Source: Granulosicoccus sp. (GTDB lineage Bacteria; Pseudomonadota; Gammaproteobacteria; Granulosicoccales; Granulosicoccaceae). Taken from it: 64,000 nucleotides of DNA. The position numbers and the translations under genes were made by a program. Below the pieces are notes generated by a model. That model did no database searches and had not been told where the DNA came from. It was given only the letters and a program-made list of their open reading frames with translations. The stretch spans positions 76,084 to 140,083 of the forward strand of contig JAHDGK010000001.1 of the NCBI GenBank assembly GCA_020627685.1, read 5' to 3'. This document shows, piece by piece, positions 2,634 through 49,516 of the stretch. Numbering within the stretch: the stretch's first letter is position 1; each line of letters starts with the position of its first letter.

Positions 2634-5396
2634 ATGACCAGCGCCAAAACCGAAGTCACAACTACCCCGCCTGCCATCTTGGTAGATGGGTCTGCCTATC
2701 TGTACCGTGCGTTCCACGCCATGCCGCCGTTGACCAATTCAAAAGGTCAGCCCACAGGCGCTATTTACGGCGTGGTCAACATGCTGCGTCGGCTAGTAAC
2801 TGATTATCAGCCAGAGATAATGGTAGTTGTCTTCGATGCCAGCGGCAAAACCTTCAGAGACGATATCTACCCAGAGTATAAGGCTAACCGCGCCAGCATG
2901 CCCGATGACATGCGCACGCAAATAAAGCCCTTGTACTCGGTGGTGGAGAAAATGGGATTTCCGCTGGTCATTATTGAGGGTGTGGAAGCTGATGACGTCA
3001 TTGGAACCTTGTCGGTTCAGGCAACAGCCGCAGGCTTGAAAACAGTCATATCCACGGGCGATAAAGACATGGCTCAGCTGGTGGATGAAAATGTCACCTT
3101 GGTCAACACCATGACAAATACCGTCATGGATGTTCCTGGAGTTATCGAAAAGTTCGGTGTAAAGCCTTCGCAGATCATTGACTACTTGACCTTAGTGGGA
3201 GACACCTCGGACAATATCCCCGGGGTACCCAGTTGCGGCCCCAAAACCGCCGCCAAGTGGCTAGCAGCCTACGAGACGCTCGATGGGGTTATCGAAAATG
3301 CGGAATCGGTTAAAGGCAAAATTGGTGAGAAGCTTCGTGATGCAATTGCCCATTTACCCATGTCTTATGATTTGGCCACTATTCGGCTTGACCTGGACCT
3401 GCCAACGCCACTGCAGGAACTGAAAATCGGAGAACCGGACAGGGAAGGCCTGGCGGAGCTGTACAAAGAGCTTGAGTTCAAAACCTGGAGCCGAGAACTG
3501 GCTGAGGGCTTATCGCCCATTCAGCAGAAGCAGGCTGCCAGTGGTGATTCTCCATCGGCAACACCTGCGTCAGCGGCTGATTCCGCTGATCGAAATTACG
3601 AAACCATCACCAGCGTAGCGTCATTAGAGAGCTGGATCGAGAAGTTGGAGAATGCAGAGATCTTTGCATTCGATACGGAAACGACGAGTTTGGACTACAT
3701 GCAAGCTGAGGTCGTCGGGCTGTCTTTCGCGATTGCCGAAGGTGAAGCCGCCTATGTACCGCTGACACACGATTACGAAGGTGCTCCGGAGCAACTCGAC
3801 AGGGCGCTGGTACTGGACAAGCTAAAGCCGTTGCTTGAGGGTGAAAAACGAAATTTGGTGGGGCAGCACATTAAGTACGATATAAACGTGCTGCGTAATC
3901 ATGGAATTGAGCTGACCAATGTTGCGCATGACACCATGTTGCAATCCTATGTACTCGATAGTACGGCGACACGCCACGACATGGACTCGCTGGCAAAAAA
4001 ATATTTAGGGCTTGGAACAGTTAAGTTTGAAGATATAGCTGGCAAGGGTAAAAAGCAGCTTACGTTCAATCAAATAGCGGTAGATGTTGCTAGCCACTAT
4101 GCTGCAGAGGATGCAGACATTACGCTACGTTTGCATAACACGCTCTGGCCTAAGTTGTCGGCAGAACCCTCGTTAAAGTCTTTGTATCTTGATATTGAAC
4201 TGCCATCGTTACACGTCTTGTCACGTATTGAATATACGGGCGTCAGAATCGATGCCGGGATGCTTGAGACGCAGGGGAAAACAATCGCGACCACCATAGA
4301 GCGCGTGAAAGCAGAAGCGTTTGAAGACGCGGGGCGCGAGTTTAATTTAGGCTCTCCAAAACAGATTGGTGAAATCTTCTTTGAAGAAAAGCAGTTTCCA
4401 ATTATTAGAAAAACCCCTAAGGGCCAGCCGTCGACAGCTGAAGACGTGCTTGAACAATTAGCCATAGACTACCCGTTACCGAGGTTAATACTCCAGCACC
4501 GCAGCTTAACTAAGCTGATGTCCACCTATATTGAAAAGTTGCCGTTGCAGATCAATCCCGGTTCCAATCGTGTGCATACGTCATACAATCAGGCCGTGGC
4601 ATCGACGGGTCGTTTGTCCAGTACAGATCCTAACTTGCAAAATATTCCAGTACGGACCGAAGAGGGTCGACGTATACGAGAGGCCTTTATTGCTGAGTCA
4701 GGTTATCGTTTATTAGCAGCGGATTACTCGCAAATAGAATTACGCATCATGGCTCATCTATCAGGAGATGCAGGACTGGTGAGCGCGTTCGAACAATCAT
4801 TGGATGTTCACAAAGCCACGGCATCAGAAGTGTTCGGTGTGCCCTTAGATGCCGTCGAGCCTGATCAACGACGGTCGGCTAAAGCGATTAATTTTGGTCT
4901 TATTTATGGCATGTCAGCCTTTGGTTTAGCTAAACAGCTGGACATACCTCGTGGAGAGGCGCAGCAATACATAAACTTGTATTTCGAGCGCTATCCGGGT
5001 GTAAAAGCTTATATGGATGACACGCGAGCATTGGCAAAAGAGCAAGGTTATGTTGAAACCGTGTTAGGTAGACGTTTATATCTGCCTGATATCAATGCCC
5101 GCAATGCGCAAATGCGAAACTATGCAGAACGTACTGCCATTAATGCCCCCATGCAGGGAACTGCTGCCGATATCATTAAACGCGCCATGATCTCCGTAGA
5201 CCATTGGCTGAACAGTGATGGTATTGATGCTCGAATCATTATGCAGGTGCACGATGAATTGGTGCTTGAAGTTAAAGCCGGGGAATTAGACGCTGTGGGT
5301 AGCGAGGTAAGCCGGCTAATGACAGAGGCCGTTCAACTAAAAGTACCTTTAGAGGTCGATGTTGGCGTTGGTAATAGTTGGGAAGAGGCTCACTAA
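2634..5396 (+). CDS. polA: DNA polymerase I
   Basis: A 920-residue family A polymerase. The N-terminal 5'-nuclease domain begins LVDGSAYLYRAFHAMPPL and includes VEADDVIGTL and TLVGDTSDNIPGVPSCGPKT. A 3'-5' exonuclease domain follows with active acidic residues in FDTETTSLD. The polymerase domain shows motif A (AADYSQIELRIMAHLSGD), the O-helix (RRSAKAINFGLIYGMSAFG) and motif C (QVHDELVLEV). The protein functions in Okazaki fragment processing and repair. The ATG at 2634 is preferred over an upstream TTG at 2595 because family members start a few residues before the ILVDGSAY strand. The stop overlaps the convergent MFS gene by 4 bp. Confidence 0.97.
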   Translation: MTSAKTEVTTTPPAILVDGSAYLYRAFHAMPPLTNSKGQPTGAIYGVVNMLRRLVTDYQPEIMVVVFDASGKTFRDDIYPEYKANRASMPDDMRTQIKPLYSVVEKMGFPLVIIEGVEADDVIGTLSVQATAAGLKTVISTGDKDMAQLVDENVTLVNTMTNTVMDVPGVIEKFGVKPSQIIDYLTLVGDTSDNIPGVPSCGPKTAAKWLAAYETLDGVIENAESVKGKIGEKLRDAIAHLPMSYDLATIRLDLDLPTPLQELKIGEPDREGLAELYKELEFKTWSRELAEGLSPIQQKQAASGDSPSATPASAADSADRNYETITSVASLESWIEKLENAEIFAFDTETTSLDYMQAEVVGLSFAIAEGEAAYVPLTHDYEGAPEQLDRALVLDKLKPLLEGEKRNLVGQHIKYDINVLRNHGIELTNVAHDTMLQSYVLDSTATRHDMDSLAKKYLGLGTVKFEDIAGKGKKQLTFNQIAVDVASHYAAEDADITLRLHNTLWPKLSAEPSLKSLYLDIELPSLHVLSRIEYTGVRIDAGMLETQGKTIATTIERVKAEAFEDAGREFNLGSPKQIGEIFFEEKQFPIIRKTPKGQPSTAEDVLEQLAIDYPLPRLILQHRSLTKLMSTYIEKLPLQINPGSNRVHTSYNQAVASTGRLSSTDPNLQNIPVRTEEGRRIREAFIAESGYRLLAADYSQIELRIMAHLSGDAGLVSAFEQSLDVHKATASEVFGVPLDAVEPDQRRSAKAINFGLIYGMSAFGLAKQLDIPRGEAQQYINLYFERYPGVKAYMDDTRALAKEQGYVETVLGRRLYLPDINARNAQMRNYAERTAINAPMQGTAADIIKRAMISVDHWLNSDGIDARIIMQVHDELVLEVKAGELDAVGSEVSRLMTEAVQLKVPLEVDVGVGNSWEEAH

Positions 5397-41388: not shown

Positions 41389-42567
41389 GTGACAGAACTT
41401 GCCCCGCTTGATGAAGAGATTACGCTTGAACAGCTTAATCTGGATCCGTACCCCATCTATCAACGCTTGCGTAAAGAATCTCCCGTGCTGCGTGTGAAAG
41501 CAACTGGGCGAACGATGCTAACAAAGGCGTCAGATACCGAATATGTCAAAGGCAATCCTGCGTTATTCAGTTCAGATGATCCAAACACCCCTATGCAAAG
41601 GGCTTTCTGGGCGCAAACGCTGATGCGCAAAGACGGTAACGATCACCGCCGCGAACGCATGGCCATGGCGGGAGCCTTTAAGCCTGCTGTAATTGAAAAC
41701 GATTGGGTGCCTCAGTATCAAAAAATTGCTGAAGAGTACGTCAGTCGTTTACCCAAAGGCGAAGTTGTCGATCTATTTCCCGCTTTGTCTGGCCCCTATG
41801 CTGCAAGAGGCCTCGCAGTTTTGTTGGGCATGGAGGAGGCAAGCGATGAACAGATGCAACGTTGGAGTCAGGCGCTCATAGAAGGTGCCGGTAATTTTGG
41901 CTGGCGCGATGAACCATTTGAACGTTCTGATAAAGCGAATGAAGAAGTCCATGCTCTATTGGATAGCTTGCAGGCCAGGCATAAAGCTGAGCCAAACAAC
42001 TCTGCATTTGCGCTGATGATTAATGCAGACAATCCGATCGAAACAAAACAGATTTACGCAAATATAAAAATAGCAATCGGCGGTGGTATTAATGAGCCGA
42101 GAGATGCGATCAACACTGTGGTTTATGGCTTGTTGACCCACCCGGATCAGCTTAGTGAAGTAAAGCGCAACGGTGATTGGGCAAAAGCGTTTGAAGAAGG
42201 TATTCGATGGGTGGCACCTATACAGGTATCTTCACGACTTGTTAAAGAAGATACTGAAATACGCGGTTGTCTGATACCCGCAGGCGATACCGTCATGACA
42301 ATACAGGCAAGTGCTTGTCGCGATGAAGAGCTGTACGAGGACGGTGAAAACTTTCATGTGTACCGAGACAAATGTCGTCATCAGGCGTTTGGTAATGGGC
42401 CGCATATGTGCCAGGGAAACAGAGTAGCCAGACAGGCTGTTGGAGAAATAATGTTGCCCTTGTTATTCGATAGATTCCCGAATTTATCCATACCTGATGA
42501 GTCTAAAGTGATTTGGCGCGGATTCGGTTTTCGCGGTCCTGTCCAAATCCCGGTCTTGCTCAAGTAA
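41389..42567 (+). CDS. Cytochrome P450 with atypical I-helix, in pca operon
   Basis: 392 residues, soluble bacterial P450 starting at GTG. The heme loop is FGNGPHMCQGNRVAR with axial Cys341; the K-helix ExxR is EGIR. The I-helix reads IGGGINEPRDAIN (about 230-242) instead of the usual (A/G)GxD/ET, so the acid-Thr pair is missing. P450s of the aromatic O-demethylase kind also deviate here. It is 14 bp before pcaI, so oxidation or demethylation of an aromatic substrate feeding the 3-oxoadipate pathway is likely. No ferredoxin or reductase gene is adjacent. Confidence 0.88.
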   Translation: MTELAPLDEEITLEQLNLDPYPIYQRLRKESPVLRVKATGRTMLTKASDTEYVKGNPALFSSDDPNTPMQRAFWAQTLMRKDGNDHRRERMAMAGAFKPAVIENDWVPQYQKIAEEYVSRLPKGEVVDLFPALSGPYAARGLAVLLGMEEASDEQMQRWSQALIEGAGNFGWRDEPFERSDKANEEVHALLDSLQARHKAEPNNSAFALMINADNPIETKQIYANIKIAIGGGINEPRDAINTVVYGLLTHPDQLSEVKRNGDWAKAFEEGIRWVAPIQVSSRLVKEDTEIRGCLIPAGDTVMTIQASACRDEELYEDGENFHVYRDKCRHQAFGNGPHMCQGNRVARQAVGEIMLPLLFDRFPNLSIPDESKVIWRGFGFRGPVQIPVLLK

Positions 42568-42581
42568 CAAGCTGATTTTTT

Positions 42582-43304
42582 ATGGATAAAACAACAGCCA
42601 ATTTGCGTGATGCCGTTGCCGATATTGCTGACGGTGCAGTACTTATGATCGGAGGGTTTGGAGGCTCTGGTGCGCCGATAGAACTCATACATGCGTTGGC
42701 TGATAGGTTCCGTGAAACCGGGAGTCCCTCGAAGCTTACGATCGTTAACAACAATGCGGGCAACGGTAAAATTGGCATTGCCGCTTTACTAAAGCTTGGC
42801 ATGGTATCTAAGGTGATCTGCTCATTTCCACGCACTGTCGATTCGCATGCGTTTACCGAGCGTTATCTTTCCGGTGAAATTGAATTGGAGTTAGTGCCTC
42901 AAGGTACGCTTGCTGAACGCATAAGAGCAGGCGGTGCGGGCATTCCTGCGTTTTACACCCCAACAGCTTATGGCACCGACTTAGCTCATGGTAAGCCGGT
43001 ACAAGAGTTTGAAGGCAAAGCTTATGTTTTAGAACGCTGGCTTAAAGCAGATGCTGCACTGGTGAAGGCAGAGATCGGAGACCGCATGGGCAACTTATCC
43101 TACCGCTTAACCGCTAGGAACTTTAATCCATTAATGTGCATGGCTGCCAAGATGACCATTGCACAAGTGTCTTGCATTGTTGAGCCGGGTGAGATTAAAG
43201 CAACAGAGGTGATTACTCCCGGTATCTATGTCGATAAGTTGGTTGAAGTGTCTCATTCTGTTCAAGAGGAGGTCATGATTAGAGCCGGTGTGGAATACGC
43301 ATGA
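42582..43304 (+). CDS. pcaI: 3-oxoadipate CoA-transferase subunit A
   Basis: 240 residues of the family I CoA-transferase alpha subunit: LMIGGFGGSGAPIELI, NNAGNGKIGIAALL and QGTLAERIRAGGAGIPAFYTPT. With PcaJ it moves CoA from succinyl-CoA to 3-oxoadipate. The overlap with pcaJ (ATGA) and the presence of pcaF favour 3-oxoadipate over acetoacetate as substrate. Confidence 0.92.
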   Translation: MDKTTANLRDAVADIADGAVLMIGGFGGSGAPIELIHALADRFRETGSPSKLTIVNNNAGNGKIGIAALLKLGMVSKVICSFPRTVDSHAFTERYLSGEIELELVPQGTLAERIRAGGAGIPAFYTPTAYGTDLAHGKPVQEFEGKAYVLERWLKADAALVKAEIGDRMGNLSYRLTARNFNPLMCMAAKMTIAQVSCIVEPGEIKATEVITPGIYVDKLVEVSHSVQEEVMIRAGVEYA

Positions 43305-43981
43305 GCTATAAAAAGCTTACTAATCCTCAAATCGCGTGGCGTGCCGCTCAGGATATAGACGATGGTGCGTATGTCAATTTAGGCATCGGTTTTCCGGAGA
43401 TGGTTGCGCGGTTTCAGCCACCGGGACGGGAAGTGATATTCCACAGCGAGAATGGAGTGCTCGGTTTTGGTGAGGCACCAGTAGATGGTGAAGAAGATTG
43501 GGATCTTATCAATGCTGGGAAAAAAGCTATTAGCTTGAATCCTGGGGCAGCCATATTTAACTCCGCGGATAGCTTTTCTTTGGTACGTGGCGGGCATTTA
43601 GATGTGGCTATTCTAGGAGCTTATCAAGTTGCACAAAATGGCGACTTAGCGAACTGGCGTGTGGGACACGCGGGGGTCCCGGCTGTGGGTGGGGCCATGG
43701 ATTTAGTCAATGGCGCAAAACAGGTTATCGTTGTTACAGATCACGTCACTAAGGATGGTCAACCAAAACTCGTAGAGTCTTGCAGTTTCCCGTTAACAGG
43801 GGTACGTTGCGTGACGAAAATTTATACATCATTGGCGGTCATACAAGTGCGTGATGAGCGTTTCGTATTACTAGAAAAGTTAAAAGACATTTCATTTGAT
43901 GAGTTGCAATCCCTGACAGGAGCAGCGCTTCATATAGAAAATGAAATTGTCGATTTGGAAGTTCCGGAGCTGGAATCATGA
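43301..43981 (+). CDS. pcaJ: 3-oxoadipate CoA-transferase subunit B
   Basis: 226 residues. The catalytic Glu lies in HSENGVLGFGEAP, the mark of the beta subunit; NLGIGFPEMVARF and GGHLDVAILGAYQV are further family motifs. It overlaps pcaI upstream and pcaF downstream by 4 bp each, so subunits are made in equal amounts. Confidence 0.93.
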   Translation: MSYKKLTNPQIAWRAAQDIDDGAYVNLGIGFPEMVARFQPPGREVIFHSENGVLGFGEAPVDGEEDWDLINAGKKAISLNPGAAIFNSADSFSLVRGGHLDVAILGAYQVAQNGDLANWRVGHAGVPAVGGAMDLVNGAKQVIVVTDHVTKDGQPKLVESCSFPLTGVRCVTKIYTSLAVIQVRDERFVLLEKLKDISFDELQSLTGAALHIENEIVDLEVPELES

Positions 43982-45180
43982 CAGAAGTATTTATTTGCGA
44001 TTACATTCGAACACCCATTGGTCGCTTCGGTGGTGCACTTTCATCAGTAAGGCCGGATGATCTAGGTGCGCTAGTGCTTCAGGCCCTTGCGGCTAGAAAC
44101 AGTTCGTTAGATTTAGAGGCGATCGATGAAGTGGTCTTCGGTTGTGCGAATCAAGCCGGTGAAGACAACCGAAATGTAGCGCGCATGTCTACTCTGTTAG
44201 CAGGCTACCCCACCAGTGTTCCTGGAATGACACTTAATCGACTTTGTGGTTCTGGTATGGATGCTGTCATAACTGCTGCCCGCGCCATTAAATCGGGCGA
44301 ACAAGAGCTAGTCGTTGCCGGCGGTGTCGAGAGCATGTCGCGCGCACCGTTTGTCATGCCCAAAGCCACTACGGCTTTTTCCAGGAATGCCGAGATATTC
44401 GATACAACCATTGGCTGGCGTTTTGTAAATCCATTGCTCAAAAAGCAGTACGGCGTCGATAGCATGCCTGAGACAGCTGAAAACGTTTCAGAGGATTTTT
44501 CAATTAGCCGTGAAGATCAAGATGCATTCGCCTTGCGTTCGCAAGAGAAGGCATCGCTTGCTCAATCAAACGGTCGGCTTGCCAAGGAAATTACGCCGGT
44601 ATCCATTGCTCAGCGTAAAGGTGAACCTAAAATCGTTGACGCCGACGAGCACCCGCGTTCAACCACATTGGAGGCGCTCGCCGGTCTACGTACACCGTTT
44701 AGAGAAGGCGGAACCATAACAGCGGGTAATGCGTCTGGTGTTAATGATGGTGCAGCCGCCTTGGTATTGGCCAGTGCTGCTGCTGCGTCGAAATATGGAT
44801 TAACTCCGATTGTGCGTGTGCTCGGTGGTGCAACAGCGGGTGTCGAGCCTCGTGTTATGGGTATTGGGCCGGCGCCAGCATCGAAAAAACTTATGCAAAG
44901 ACTCGGTTTGGTTGTGGACAACTTTGATGTCATCGAATTGAACGAAGCATTTGCGTCCCAGGGCCTAGCGACGCTTCGGGATCTGGGTGTTGCCGATAAT
45001 GACCCGCGTGTTAATCCAAATGGTGGGGCGATTGCTCTAGGGCATCCCTTGGGAATGTCGGGTGCTCGTATCACCGGCACCGCTGCACTAGAGTTGTCGC
45101 AGACCGGGGGCAAGCTTGCTTTGTCCACCATGTGCATTGGTGTGGGACAGGGAATCGCGATTGCGCTTGAGGCGGTTTAG
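43978..45180 (+). CDS. pcaF: 3-oxoadipyl-CoA thiolase
   Basis: 400 residues. The acyl-accepting Cys90 is in LNRLCGSGMDAV, His356 in GGAIALGHPLGMSGARI and the base Cys386 in STMCIGVGQG. It cleaves 3-oxoadipyl-CoA to succinyl-CoA and acetyl-CoA, the last step of the beta-ketoadipate route. The ring-cleavage genes pcaGHBCD are not in the window. Confidence 0.93.
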   Translation: MTEVFICDYIRTPIGRFGGALSSVRPDDLGALVLQALAARNSSLDLEAIDEVVFGCANQAGEDNRNVARMSTLLAGYPTSVPGMTLNRLCGSGMDAVITAARAIKSGEQELVVAGGVESMSRAPFVMPKATTAFSRNAEIFDTTIGWRFVNPLLKKQYGVDSMPETAENVSEDFSISREDQDAFALRSQEKASLAQSNGRLAKEITPVSIAQRKGEPKIVDADEHPRSTTLEALAGLRTPFREGGTITAGNASGVNDGAAALVLASAAAASKYGLTPIVRVLGGATAGVEPRVMGIGPAPASKKLMQRLGLVVDNFDVIELNEAFASQGLATLRDLGVADNDPRVNPNGGAIALGHPLGMSGARITGTAALELSQTGGKLALSTMCIGVGQGIAIALEAV

Positions 45181-45244
45181 ATAAAATTGACCTTCGTGGT
45201 ACTTACAGTGTTAATTGGATTTTGGAAAAATTCTATTTTGTGTA

Positions 45245-45275
45245 GGAATAATTAAGCAGGCTCATGTGTTCTCTT
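45245..45275 (+). promoter_or_regulatory. ECF-type promoter of the yceI gene
   Basis: GGAATAA (45245-45251), a 16-bp spacer, then GTTCTCTT (45268-45275). The same two boxes with the same spacing lie in front of the ECF sigma gene on the opposite strand at 47357-47387. The start codon of yceI is 46 bp downstream. Confidence 0.65.
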
Positions 45276-45320
45276 TTTTAAGCACTGCTTTTGGTGCGTT
45301 TGACTTGGAGAACTTGCCAC

Positions 45321-45914
45321 ATGTTTATACGAAAAATACTATCCGCCTCGCTGTTAGCAGCGTCCTTTCTGGTTGCGAATGTTGCATCAGCTGAGCTTAC
45401 GCTTGATTCAGAGCGCTCGTCATTATCGATAATCTCTTACAAAGTGCTGGCGGGTGCCAGTGCAAGTATCGCCGAACGTCATACGTTTACTGGACTGACA
45501 GGGTCTGTGAGCGATGCAGGAGCCGCATCAGTAAGTATTCCATTGGATAGTATCGAAACCAATATTCCTATTCGAAACGAGCGCCTCGCGAAATTTGTAT
45601 TCGAAACCGATCAGTATCCGAATGCAACGGTCACTGCCAAAGTGCCTGAAAGTGCGATGGCTGCTGGAACCTCCATGATGGATCTAGACGTTACACTTTC
45701 TCTTCATGGCAAAGAGCAGACTATGAGTGTTCCGGTGCTGGTCTCAAATGCTAATGGTGAGGTCAGTGTGAGTGCGACCCAACCTGTCATGCTGGATGCC
45801 GTTGCTTATGATTTTGGTGCCGGTGTCGCGAAAATGGCTGAGTTAGCAAAACTTTTGCATATTCCAACCGTGGTACCTGTGTCTTTTTCCTTAGTGTTTA
45901 CATCCGGAAGCTAA
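45321..45914 (+). CDS. YceI family periplasmic protein
   Basis: 197 residues with a signal peptide (ILSASLLAASFLVANVASA). The lipocalin-like YceI fold is recognised from LTLDSERSSLSIISYKV, FTGLTGSV, VSIPLDSIETNIPIRNERL and SLHGKEQTM. Such proteins bind polyisoprenoid-like lipids; some respond to stress. A promoter element shared with the neighbouring ECF sigma gene lies upstream, so it is probably a target of that sigma factor. It is convergent with the anti-sigma gene. Confidence 0.9.
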   Translation: MFIRKILSASLLAASFLVANVASAELTLDSERSSLSIISYKVLAGASASIAERHTFTGLTGSVSDAGAASVSIPLDSIETNIPIRNERLAKFVFETDQYPNATVTAKVPESAMAAGTSMMDLDVTLSLHGKEQTMSVPVLVSNANGEVSVSATQPVMLDAVAYDFGAGVAKMAELAKLLHIPTVVPVSFSLVFTSGS

Positions 45915-45958
45915 ACCGAAACAGATCTTTTTCTAAACGCCATGCGCAAAGATGATTC

Positions 45959-46780
45959 CTACAGAAACAATCTTTGCGCATGGCGGGCAATGGATTCAAT
46001 CGATTCCTGAGACTCATCAGCCACAATGACAAAACGCTGTGATGCTGTCCGCCAGCTGGCACTCCCCAGATCTTCATGAAGAGCAACGGTAATAGTGCTC
46101 TGATCCTCTCCTTGTGACGGCATAAAACACAATGCGAGAGGTTTTTTTCCAGGACTTGTATAGACCAGCTGGATGAGCGGTTGCCCTTGAAAGCCTAGCT
46201 GTTGTGCACGTACAAATTGATAGTCGTAGTCGCTTAGATCAGGGATTTGCGCATCCATAACATCCTTGATTTCTGATCGGGCTAATAGTTCGTCAGCCTT
46301 TGTACGACCATCCTGTATGTCTTTAACTGTTTGGGCGACATACAACGATTGATAGTCGGCGACGCGTTGTACCCACAAGGTGTCTTCCGTAGTTTGGCCG
46401 TGTATCACCGGATCGTTAACCGCAACTTGACCATTGCTACGCAAATTGGCAGTGCCGAATCCTAGGGCAAAACTCAGTCCAACCGCTGCTGCAACTGCGG
46501 CCACTTTCATGCCCCACGGCTTAGCTGCTTGAGGCTGCATGGAGGAGTTTCGCGCCACATCGGACCAGACTGATACAGTTTGTCTTAGGTTCTCAGGCAT
46601 TTCAGGGGCAGGGTTAAGCTTATAGGCCATGGAGTACGGCAGCTGAGAGGCCAGCATCGCGTCTACGCGCTGACTTAATTCGGCATCATTGTTGATGTCA
46701 CTGCGCAGTTGACTCGCAGACTGTTCATCCATGTCGCCGTCAACATAGCGCAATATGTCTTCATCGCTGTAGGATTTCAT
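45959..46780 (-). CDS. Anti-sigma factor, membrane-anchored
   Basis: 273 residues. The N-terminal cytosolic helix bundle begins SDEDILRYVDGDMDEQSASQL, as in anti-sigma domains, without the zinc HxxxCxxC motif. One membrane helix (VAAVAAAVGLSFALGFGTA, about 97-115) is followed by a periplasmic domain ending in SIESIARHAQRLFL. It overlaps the sigma gene by 4 bp and presumably inhibits it until a periplasmic signal arrives. Confidence 0.85.
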   Translation of the reverse strand: MKSYSDEDILRYVDGDMDEQSASQLRSDINNDAELSQRVDAMLASQLPYSMAYKLNPAPEMPENLRQTVSVWSDVARNSSMQPQAAKPWGMKVAAVAAAVGLSFALGFGTANLRSNGQVAVNDPVIHGQTTEDTLWVQRVADYQSLYVAQTVKDIQDGRTKADELLARSEIKDVMDAQIPDLSDYDYQFVRAQQLGFQGQPLIQLVYTSPGKKPLALCFMPSQGEDQSTITVALHEDLGSASWRTASQRFVIVADESQESIESIARHAQRLFL

Positions 46781-47352
46781 CGTAGAACCTCAGAGCCTTT
46801 GTGGCCGTCTTTATTATCGTTATTCGATTGCAATATCCTGTTTCCGATAAGGAGTCTTGCACGAGCCAGGCGGCTCATTATAGTGCCAATGGGAACTTCT
46901 AATATCTCAGCAGCTTCCTTATAGCTATAGCCTTCTACGCTAACTAAAAGCATGACAAGACGTTGAGCTTCGGGTAAGTTTTCCACTGCATCATGAACCT
47001 GATGCAACATGACGTTGCTTTCCGGTTCCAGAAAACCTTCACCATCAATGGCTTTGTTTTCCTCAGCTGTTGGAATGTGAACAGCGGTATTCGAAGGGCT
47101 TAATGTTTTCTGTTGACGAATACTTCGCGAGCGAATCTCATTTATCCAAATTCGATGCGCCACGCGCATTAACCAACTGGGAAATTTACCCCGCGCCTCA
47201 TACTGATCAGCTCTCTCCAATACGCGTAAGCAGGTTCGCTGCACAAGGTCTGCAGCATCATCCTGACTTCCGGTTAAGCGCCAGGAAAAACGCCAAAGCG
47301 TATCCAATTCGTTTTCCAGCAGGTGGCTGACATGTTCCGATTCTTGGCTCAT
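46777..47352 (-). CDS. ECF RNA polymerase sigma factor
   Basis: 191 residues. Region 2 is DAADLVQRTCLRVLERADQY with the downstream FPSWLMRVAHRIWINEIRS, and region 4 is LPEAQRLVMLLVSVEGYSYKEAAEILEVPIGTIMSRLARAR split by a helix-turn-helix. It probably recognises the GGAATAA-N16-GTTCTC element found upstream of itself and of yceI, forming an autoregulated stress unit with the overlapping anti-sigma gene. Confidence 0.93.
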   Translation of the reverse strand: MSQESEHVSHLLENELDTLWRFSWRLTGSQDDAADLVQRTCLRVLERADQYEARGKFPSWLMRVAHRIWINEIRSRSIRQQKTLSPSNTAVHIPTAEENKAIDGEGFLEPESNVMLHQVHDAVENLPEAQRLVMLLVSVEGYSYKEAAEILEVPIGTIMSRLARARLLIGNRILQSNNDNKDGHKGSEVLR

Positions 47353-47356
47353 AGTG

Positions 47357-47387
47357 AAGAGAACAGCGCGGTACGGGATTTTATTCC
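47357..47387 (-). promoter_or_regulatory. ECF-type autoregulatory promoter of the sigma gene
   Basis: On the minus strand GGAATAA (47387-47381), a 16-bp spacer and GTTCTCTT (47364-47357) stand immediately before the sigma ATG at 47352. A transcript starting the usual 6-7 bases after the -10 box would begin at or next to the start codon, giving a leaderless or nearly leaderless mRNA. Confidence 0.65.
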
Positions 47388-47590
47388 CTTACCGTCGGTA
47401 TTTTTGATAACGGATAAGGTTACGCAGAGTTTTCGAGTATGCCTGAAGGCTGACCGGATGCATCAGTAAGGAATTTCAGCACTTTTTCAACGTCTTGGCT
47501 GTTAATCTAGTCCGCATAGTGTGATTTAGCGAACACTTTGTTTGAGGCGAGTGTTTTCTTCTATTGATTAAATAAGGGTTGGCTTTGAGT

Positions 47591-48457: not shown

Positions 48458-49516
48458 ATGTTTCTACATGCTGTGGCCACCTTGGTGCTCTTGCTTTTTC
48501 TGCCGCTGACAAGTGTCGCCGGTGATAGGAAAGAAGCCTTTTTCTACTCAGAGAAAACCTTTGGTTCTGATGCGCTCTACAATCCAGCGAGTGCGTTTTT
48601 CACTTATTCGTTAGATACATTGCAGTTGTCTGAAAATTTTGATTTGGACAACTATAACGACGACTTATCCGACGTATGGGAGCAATTGAAACACCCGCGG
48701 CGGGCTATTGACAATGAAGGAGGTTTTCGTCGTTTTGTTAATCGTGAAATATTCCCGATAGACTCTGACCATCATCGCGATAGTTTTGCAATGTTGCCCA
48801 ATTACACATTGCACTTACTGGGAGATGGTATGGCTTACCGGCGTGATGTTGAATGGTTTCGTGAACACGACTATCCCTATCCGCGTTTGACGGCGGCTAT
48901 GATCGCAATGGTCAGTGAGGTATTGCAGGAGGGCTTAGAGGCACAGAACACAACCGATGCTGATGCGATTGCCGATGTCTATATATTTAGGCCTCTGGGC
49001 ATTTTGTTGTTTAGCCAGGAGTGGTTTGCCGGCGCTGTACATAGAATGTTAGATCCGCTCATTTGGCCGACAATAACCGCCTGGGACTTACGAAAAAACC
49101 GTTTTTCAAATACCGGTATTGCCTATGTTTATAGGCCACCCCGTTTTCAATGGGCAAACAAACGCCTGTTCGTTTATACCGGATTGAACAATATGTTCGG
49201 TTTGTCTCATCAGCGTGCATCCGGCCATACGTTCTCCTGGGCCTTTGGTGCCGCGGTAGAGGAGATTGTCAGACAGCGTAATATTCAGGCCGATTTGCGG
49301 CCCAGTGCGGGATTATTCTATGAGCGTGACGGAAGCCTTCTGTGGTCAGTTTTGATTAACGATACCGGTGATCAACGATTCAGACTGAATGTTTATCCTA
49401 AAGCCGTTCCCTGGCTAAAAAAAACGGGTTTTTATTTAGCCGTTAATGATGAAGGGCGCACGGCTGCGGGTATTGTCCATCGCCTGCCGATTGGTGTTGG
49501 CATGTCAAACATGTAA
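48458..49516 (+). CDS. Secreted protein of unknown function
   Basis: 352 residues with a signal peptide (AVATLVLLLFLPLTSVAG). The mature protein is rich in aromatic residues and short alternating strands (YNPASAFFTYSLDTLQLS, YTLHLLGDGMAYR, LFVYTGLNNMFGLSHQRASGH), and contains a HHRDSF stretch. A beta-barrel or outer-membrane association is plausible. I do not recognise the family. It is monocistronic, 99 bp after the SDR gene. Confidence 0.7.
   Translation: MFLHAVATLVLLLFLPLTSVAGDRKEAFFYSEKTFGSDALYNPASAFFTYSLDTLQLSENFDLDNYNDDLSDVWEQLKHPRRAIDNEGGFRRFVNREIFPIDSDHHRDSFAMLPNYTLHLLGDGMAYRRDVEWFREHDYPYPRLTAAMIAMVSEVLQEGLEAQNTTDADAIADVYIFRPLGILLFSQEWFAGAVHRMLDPLIWPTITAWDLRKNRFSNTGIAYVYRPPRFQWANKRLFVYTGLNNMFGLSHQRASGHTFSWAFGAAVEEIVRQRNIQADLRPSAGLFYERDGSLLWSVLINDTGDQRFRLNVYPKAVPWLKKTGFYLAVNDEGRTAAGIVHRLPIGVGMSNM

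Follow-up and report, generated by a model that had tools for sequence, protein, structure and literature searches.

The closest described systems are the group ECF26 sigma factors RpoE1, RpoE3, RpoE4 and RpoE6 of Sinorhizobium meliloti, which occur with the anti-sigma factors EcfR1, EcfR3, EcfR4 and EcfR6 (PMC6180224, PMC3511301). ECF26 promoters have the consensus GGAATA at −35 and GT at −10 (PMC6180224), and in S. meliloti the transcription starts mapped for the rpoE1 and rpoE4 operons are preceded by GAAT-N18-GTCT (PMC3616915). In these systems a membrane anti-sigma factor is encoded after the sigma factor, the regulons are small, and the rpoE1 operon is autoregulated. An S8 protease/lipoprotein neighbour is common in the group, although not stated as required, and rpoE6 was described as an ECF26 member with a divergent S8 peptidase (PMC6180224). 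Two further points of comparison come from other directions. In RseA–RseB and MucA–MucB, too, a membrane anti-sigma factor is controlled with the involvement of a periplasmic domain that has the RseB/MucB C-terminal fold, and leaderless transcripts that start at or next to the AUG have been mapped in S. meliloti (171 transcripts; PMC3616915) and in Cupriavidus metallidurans, where they are enriched for transcription genes (PMC7563307).

Here we analysed a 64-kb stretch of DNA (the window) that contains two promoter-like sites with identical boxes, one before yceI and one before an ECF sigma gene. The locus resembles the S. meliloti systems in its GGAATA and GT boxes at equal spacing, in the probable membrane anti-sigma gene placed directly after the sigma gene and in an apparently small regulon with predicted autoregulation. 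It differs in its putative targets, which would be YceI here and DUF4399 or CHRD proteins in relatives rather than the sulfite-oxidation genes of S. meliloti, and in a predicted sigma promoter that abuts the ATG. We conclude that both sites are very probably promoters of the ECF sigma factor encoded at 46777–47352, driving its own operon and yceI, and that the sigma mRNA would be leaderless or nearly so. The circuit type itself was already known; what is added to an earlier note on this DNA is the conservation of the site before unlinked yceI genes, the probable sigma group and the leaderless prediction.

Two matching sites precede yceI and the sigma operon

The sequence GGAATAA-N16-GTTCTC, followed by TT, is present in the window at 45245–45273 on the plus strand and at 47387–47359 on the minus strand. 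The earlier note had reported that the boxes are identical at 15 of 15 bases with a spacer of exactly 16 at both sites, and that one site precedes yceI and the other the ECF sigma gene; we reproduced the letters and coordinates, and the gene positions agree. The features of the locus are as follows.

45226–45239, plus strand: A/T tract AAAAATTCTATTTT 5′ of the yceI −35 box, possible UP element
45245–45251, plus strand: predicted −35 box GGAATAA of the yceI promoter (pattern match, weight matrix)
45268–45273, plus strand: predicted −10 box GTTCTC of the yceI promoter, 16 nt past the −35 box (pattern match, weight matrix, conserved before yceI orthologues)
45278–45280, plus strand: region where yceI transcription is predicted to start (based on the −10 position and on the spacing of S. 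meliloti ECF26 promoters)
45321–45914, plus strand: yceI, YceI-like protein of 197 aa (PF04264)
45959–46780, minus strand: likely anti-sigma factor of 273 aa (structure prediction, weak NCBIfam match)
46777–47352, minus strand: ECF sigma factor of 191 aa (PF04542 and PF08281, TIGR02937)
47352–47354, minus strand: region where transcription of the sigma operon is predicted to start, at the ATG or no more than 2 nt from it (based on the −10 position)
47359–47364, minus strand: predicted −10 box GTTCTC of the sigma promoter (pattern match, weight matrix)
47381–47387, minus strand: predicted −35 box GGAATAA of the sigma promoter (pattern match, weight matrix)
47401–47405, minus strand: short A tract (AAAAA) 5′ of the sigma −35 box

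The yceI product matched PF04264 with 50.2 bits against a cut-off of 23.7, and its N-terminal stretch resembles a signal peptide as judged by eye. The sigma factor contains regions 2 and 4 only, as in the ECF (group 4) family, with PF04542, PF08281 and TIGR02937 all above their cut-offs. Its gene overlaps the anti-sigma gene by 4 nt, and the NCBIfam match of the latter was weak and under its cut-off. Because yceI and the sigma operon are convergent, each needs a separate promoter. The end of the plus-strand site is 47 nt from the yceI ATG, so the predicted start region would give yceI a leader of about 40 nt. Upstream of yceI, at 41389–45180, are a cytochrome P450 gene and 3-oxoadipate genes (CoA transferase subunits and pcaF). 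On the other side of the locus, 48458–49516 encodes a protein of 352 aa that probably has a signal peptide and that matched nothing in Pfam or NCBIfam.

Shuffled versions of the window gave an expectation of 0.01 matches to the pattern, a value of limited weight given that the pattern was defined after sight. The same 64 kb contains 16 different split words of the form 7+N16+8 that are each present two or more times; thus the 15/15 match is not striking alone, and we dismissed this identity as proof of function.

The motif accompanies relatives of the sigma gene

Relatives of the sigma factor were found in 26 of 143 genomes, counting its own, and others were found in named assemblies. Near these genes, 33 exact GGAATAA..GTT pairs had a spacing of 16, and none of the other spacings between 5 and 30 was represented by more than 4 pairs, although these counts include loci of close kin and represent fewer independent events than 33. 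The conserved core in the relatives consists of GGAATAA-N16-GTT, with N-T-(C/T) less strictly conserved after it. The box GTTCTC plus TT proposed earlier is present in full at both sites of the window, but its final TT does not belong to the conserved core.

A weight matrix was trained on 18 sites of relatives, with the window sites left out. The two sites scored 23.0 (yceI) and 19.9 (sigma) and ranked first and second among about 128,000 positions of the window, the next best score being 10.3. They fall at the low end of the relatives' sites, which scored 20.9–35.2. Many of the relatives' sites also have upstream A/T tracts similar to the one before yceI.

Sites of the same genus mostly face a divergent gene for a secreted protein, which is a DUF4399 protein in most cases, a CHRD protein in L126 and YceI in L129. 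Most of these relatives have a clear site at the divergent target only and none at the sigma gene; hence autoregulation is not uniform. Nine loci (L128, L130–L134, L136, L140 and L142) have, upstream of the sigma gene, a single divergent site of partial symmetry (GGAATAAAAC..GTGTTATTGG) and no good site facing the sigma gene. Such partly symmetric sites could possibly act as two-way promoters. When divergent sites were scored backwards as sigma promoters, two loci gave 12.9 and 11.2 and most gave less than 6. At one locus of another genome (L121, G006:C93), a stretch of about 2.5 kb holds a tandem array of three related ECF sigma genes.

The sigma factor probably belongs to ECF group 26

The nearest characterised counterpart of the window sigma factor is Sinorhizobium RpoE6. 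With RpoE6 as the query against the genome that contains the window, the window sigma factor was the best of seven matches (9e-29), followed by one at 3e-15. In a tree that included few other groups, the window sigma factor, its relatives and RpoE6 grouped together with moderate support (81/92), apart from E. coli RpoE and from the other ECF-like proteins of the genome. The spacing of GGAATAA-N16-GTT equals that of the mapped S. meliloti GAAT-N18-GTCT promoters. A COG5662-type partner is a trait of ECF26, and only 36 residues of the anti-sigma factor align with the RpoE6 partner. The S. meliloti plasmid homologue used as this query sits divergent from an S8 peptidase gene, which matches the published rpoE6 arrangement, and an S8 serine protease or small lipoprotein neighbour is present in S. 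meliloti and in relative L058; no such gene lies beside the window sigma gene. On the whole, the RpoE6 match and the promoter spacing suggest that the sigma factor most likely belongs to ECF26.

The structure of the anti-sigma factor was predicted with a mean pLDDT of 82. For its N-terminal helical domain, similarity to that of the anti-sigma factor ChrR was middling (Z 5.1 over 58 residues), one membrane helix is predicted at residues 93–113, and the C-terminal domain resembles that of RseB/MucB (Z about 9 over 94–100 residues). As there is no Cys or His in the first 90 residues, a zinc-type motif is absent. Whereas RseB and MucB are separate proteins, the RseB-like domain is fused here into the anti-sigma factor, and the sigma group and promoter boxes also differ from those of the RseA and MucA systems. 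All 19 aligned proteins share Cys218 of the periplasmic domain, but it is missing from the S. meliloti RpoE6 partner. This residue of the 45959–46780 product is a candidate sensor, and our guess is that a thiol or redox signal might act through it.

Sites before yceI follow the presence of the sigma gene

With the window YceI as the query, 30 yceI loci were recovered. A site with a score above 10 was present in six of the nine loci from genomes that carry the sigma gene, 47–72 nt before the approximate start, and in three of these six genomes (G006, G029 and G039) yceI and the sigma gene are on different contigs. In contrast, where the genome gave no sigma match at 1e-20, yceI was without a site at every one of 21 loci, two of which are cut short upstream (one-sided Fisher test, worked by hand, about 1.4e-4). 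The yceI gene of G006, which is 76% identical and apparently follows pcaF as in the window, retains GGAATAAAATCCTATTCACAGGTGTTCTCC. On Ruegeria plasmids the closest relatives of the sigma factor and of YceI are divergent neighbours, and one such plasmid has CGAATAA-N16-GTTTGC before yceI; CGAATAA is also the form found in the S. meliloti SMc01022 promoter. The open papers that we searched contained nothing direct on an ECF sigma factor controlling YceI through this motif. The comparative evidence and the ECF26 consensus support the reading, already put forward in the earlier note, of likely ECF promoters with an autoregulated sigma factor and YceI as target.

That note had also suggested a search of the whole genome for further members. 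In the 4.93-Mb genome this produced a third exact match with a spacer of 16 (C39:14194), antisense inside a gene. We rejected a larger regulon in this genome, where most sites with at most one mismatch were inside or antisense to genes. The best-placed extra site, at C105:588-616 (L008), lies before a Spond_N gene that is divergent from a CHRD lipoprotein gene, and it scored 24.1. Sites of this type are not conserved before other Spond_N genes of the genus, and we consider it a candidate third site of the regulon in this genome. An A/T tract is also present upstream of it. Searching the genome for DUF4399 gave no match, and the search controls were likewise silent. Genus-wide, the pattern occurred at 27 sites compared with 12 for a reversed control pattern, an excess about equal to the number of sigma-adjacent sites.

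The sigma transcript is predicted to be leaderless

Only six bases, TTCACT, separate GTTCTC from the sigma ATG, so that its A is the seventh base past the box, and these six bases contain no ribosome site. If the published promoter strings are read as ending at the start itself, transcription from four S. meliloti ECF26-dependent promoters begins 5–7 nt past the −10 hexamer; one of these strings ends in a lower-case base, which denotes a start found by both methods. Since a start 5–9 nt after the sigma −10 box, the range named in the earlier note, would unexpectedly fall on or next to the start codon, the sigma mRNA most likely begins at or within 2 nt of its own ATG and would be leaderless or nearly so. 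Unlike the mapped transcripts of S. meliloti (PMC3616915) and C. metallidurans (PMC7563307), this one is predicted from sequence.

An in-frame ATG 4–8 nt past the box was found in about 14 of the approximately 21 relatives with a self-facing site (the window, L056, L057, L059, L062–L064, L068, one copy of L121, L123, L125, L160, L161 and L246). This arrangement, seen in Alpha-, Beta- and Gammaproteobacteria, perhaps represents seven or eight independent lineages. In L160 and L161, the two Caballeronia loci, the annotated ATG is 30 nt later than the ATG adjacent to the box. Among the open papers searched, none described an autoregulated ECF26 sigma factor with a leaderless mRNA. We see an even chance that, in a branch of ECF26-like systems, the sigma factor is autoregulated from a promoter that starts transcription at its own ATG, such that the stress-induced mRNA would need leaderless initiation and the targets, YceI and similar secreted proteins, would have ordinary leaders. 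A leaderless sigma transcript, if true, would point to a translational level of control within this feedback.

Alternative explanations and the proposed circuit

Three other explanations were weighed. The yceI site could be real while the sigma site is weak or unused, with another main promoter and perhaps translation from a later TTG. The sigma site has the lower score of 19.9 and leaves just 6 nt up to the ATG, there is a TTG 51 nt after the box, and many relatives have no site facing the sigma gene. However, the recurrence of a box-adjacent in-frame ATG in about two-thirds of the relatives with self-facing sites argues against this possibility, as does the fact that a TTG start would take away residues from the beginning of sigma region 2, for which the Pfam match runs from residue 13 on, and we consider it unlikely. 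It is very unlikely that both sites are ECF promoters used mainly by another sigma factor of the genome, the neighbouring one using other sites. The genome does contain other ECF-like genes (13 first-look candidates, and the seven RpoE6 matches), and the ECF26 members of S. meliloti cross-activate one another's targets (PMC6180224), but the motif travels with this sigma subfamily, yceI genes in genomes without the sigma factor are also without the motif, and no other gene in the genome strongly resembles RpoE6. As for functionless chance repeats, with which the 16 repeated split words of equal size would agree, the independent matrix scores, the placement before the right two genes, the conservation at unlinked yceI loci and the sharp spacing peak make this explanation extremely improbable.

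In the preferred explanation, the sigma factor drives its own operon and yceI. Sequence comparison demonstrates the two sites, the conservation of their spacing, their link to this sigma gene and to yceI, and where the ATG lies; that the promoters are active and that the second gene product works as an anti-sigma factor is inferred, as are the signal and the role in physiology. At rest, the membrane-anchored anti-sigma factor encoded directly after the sigma gene would hold the sigma factor. A periplasmic or envelope signal would free it, perhaps via the RseB-like domain and the invariant cysteine. RNA polymerase with the sigma factor would then read GGAATAA at −35 and GTTNT(C/T) at −10 with 16 bases between them, the sigma/anti-sigma operon would be amplified by positive feedback with the co-made anti-sigma factor as a brake, and secreted YceI would be produced from the second site. 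A little-studied sigma group would gain a circuit that can be tested and a new target that recurs among genomes, and YceI, DUF4399 and CHRD proteins, the roles of which are poorly known, would be tied by a shared sigma factor to one envelope response.

Divergent ECF26-like sites were also observed on the Caballeronia plasmids L160 and L161 (at about 4860–4945, 5′ of the sigma gene). They lie between the sigma relative and a small gene that is followed by hcp and tssA, B, C, E and F, and an ECF26-like sigma factor may control the type VI secretion cluster on these plasmids.
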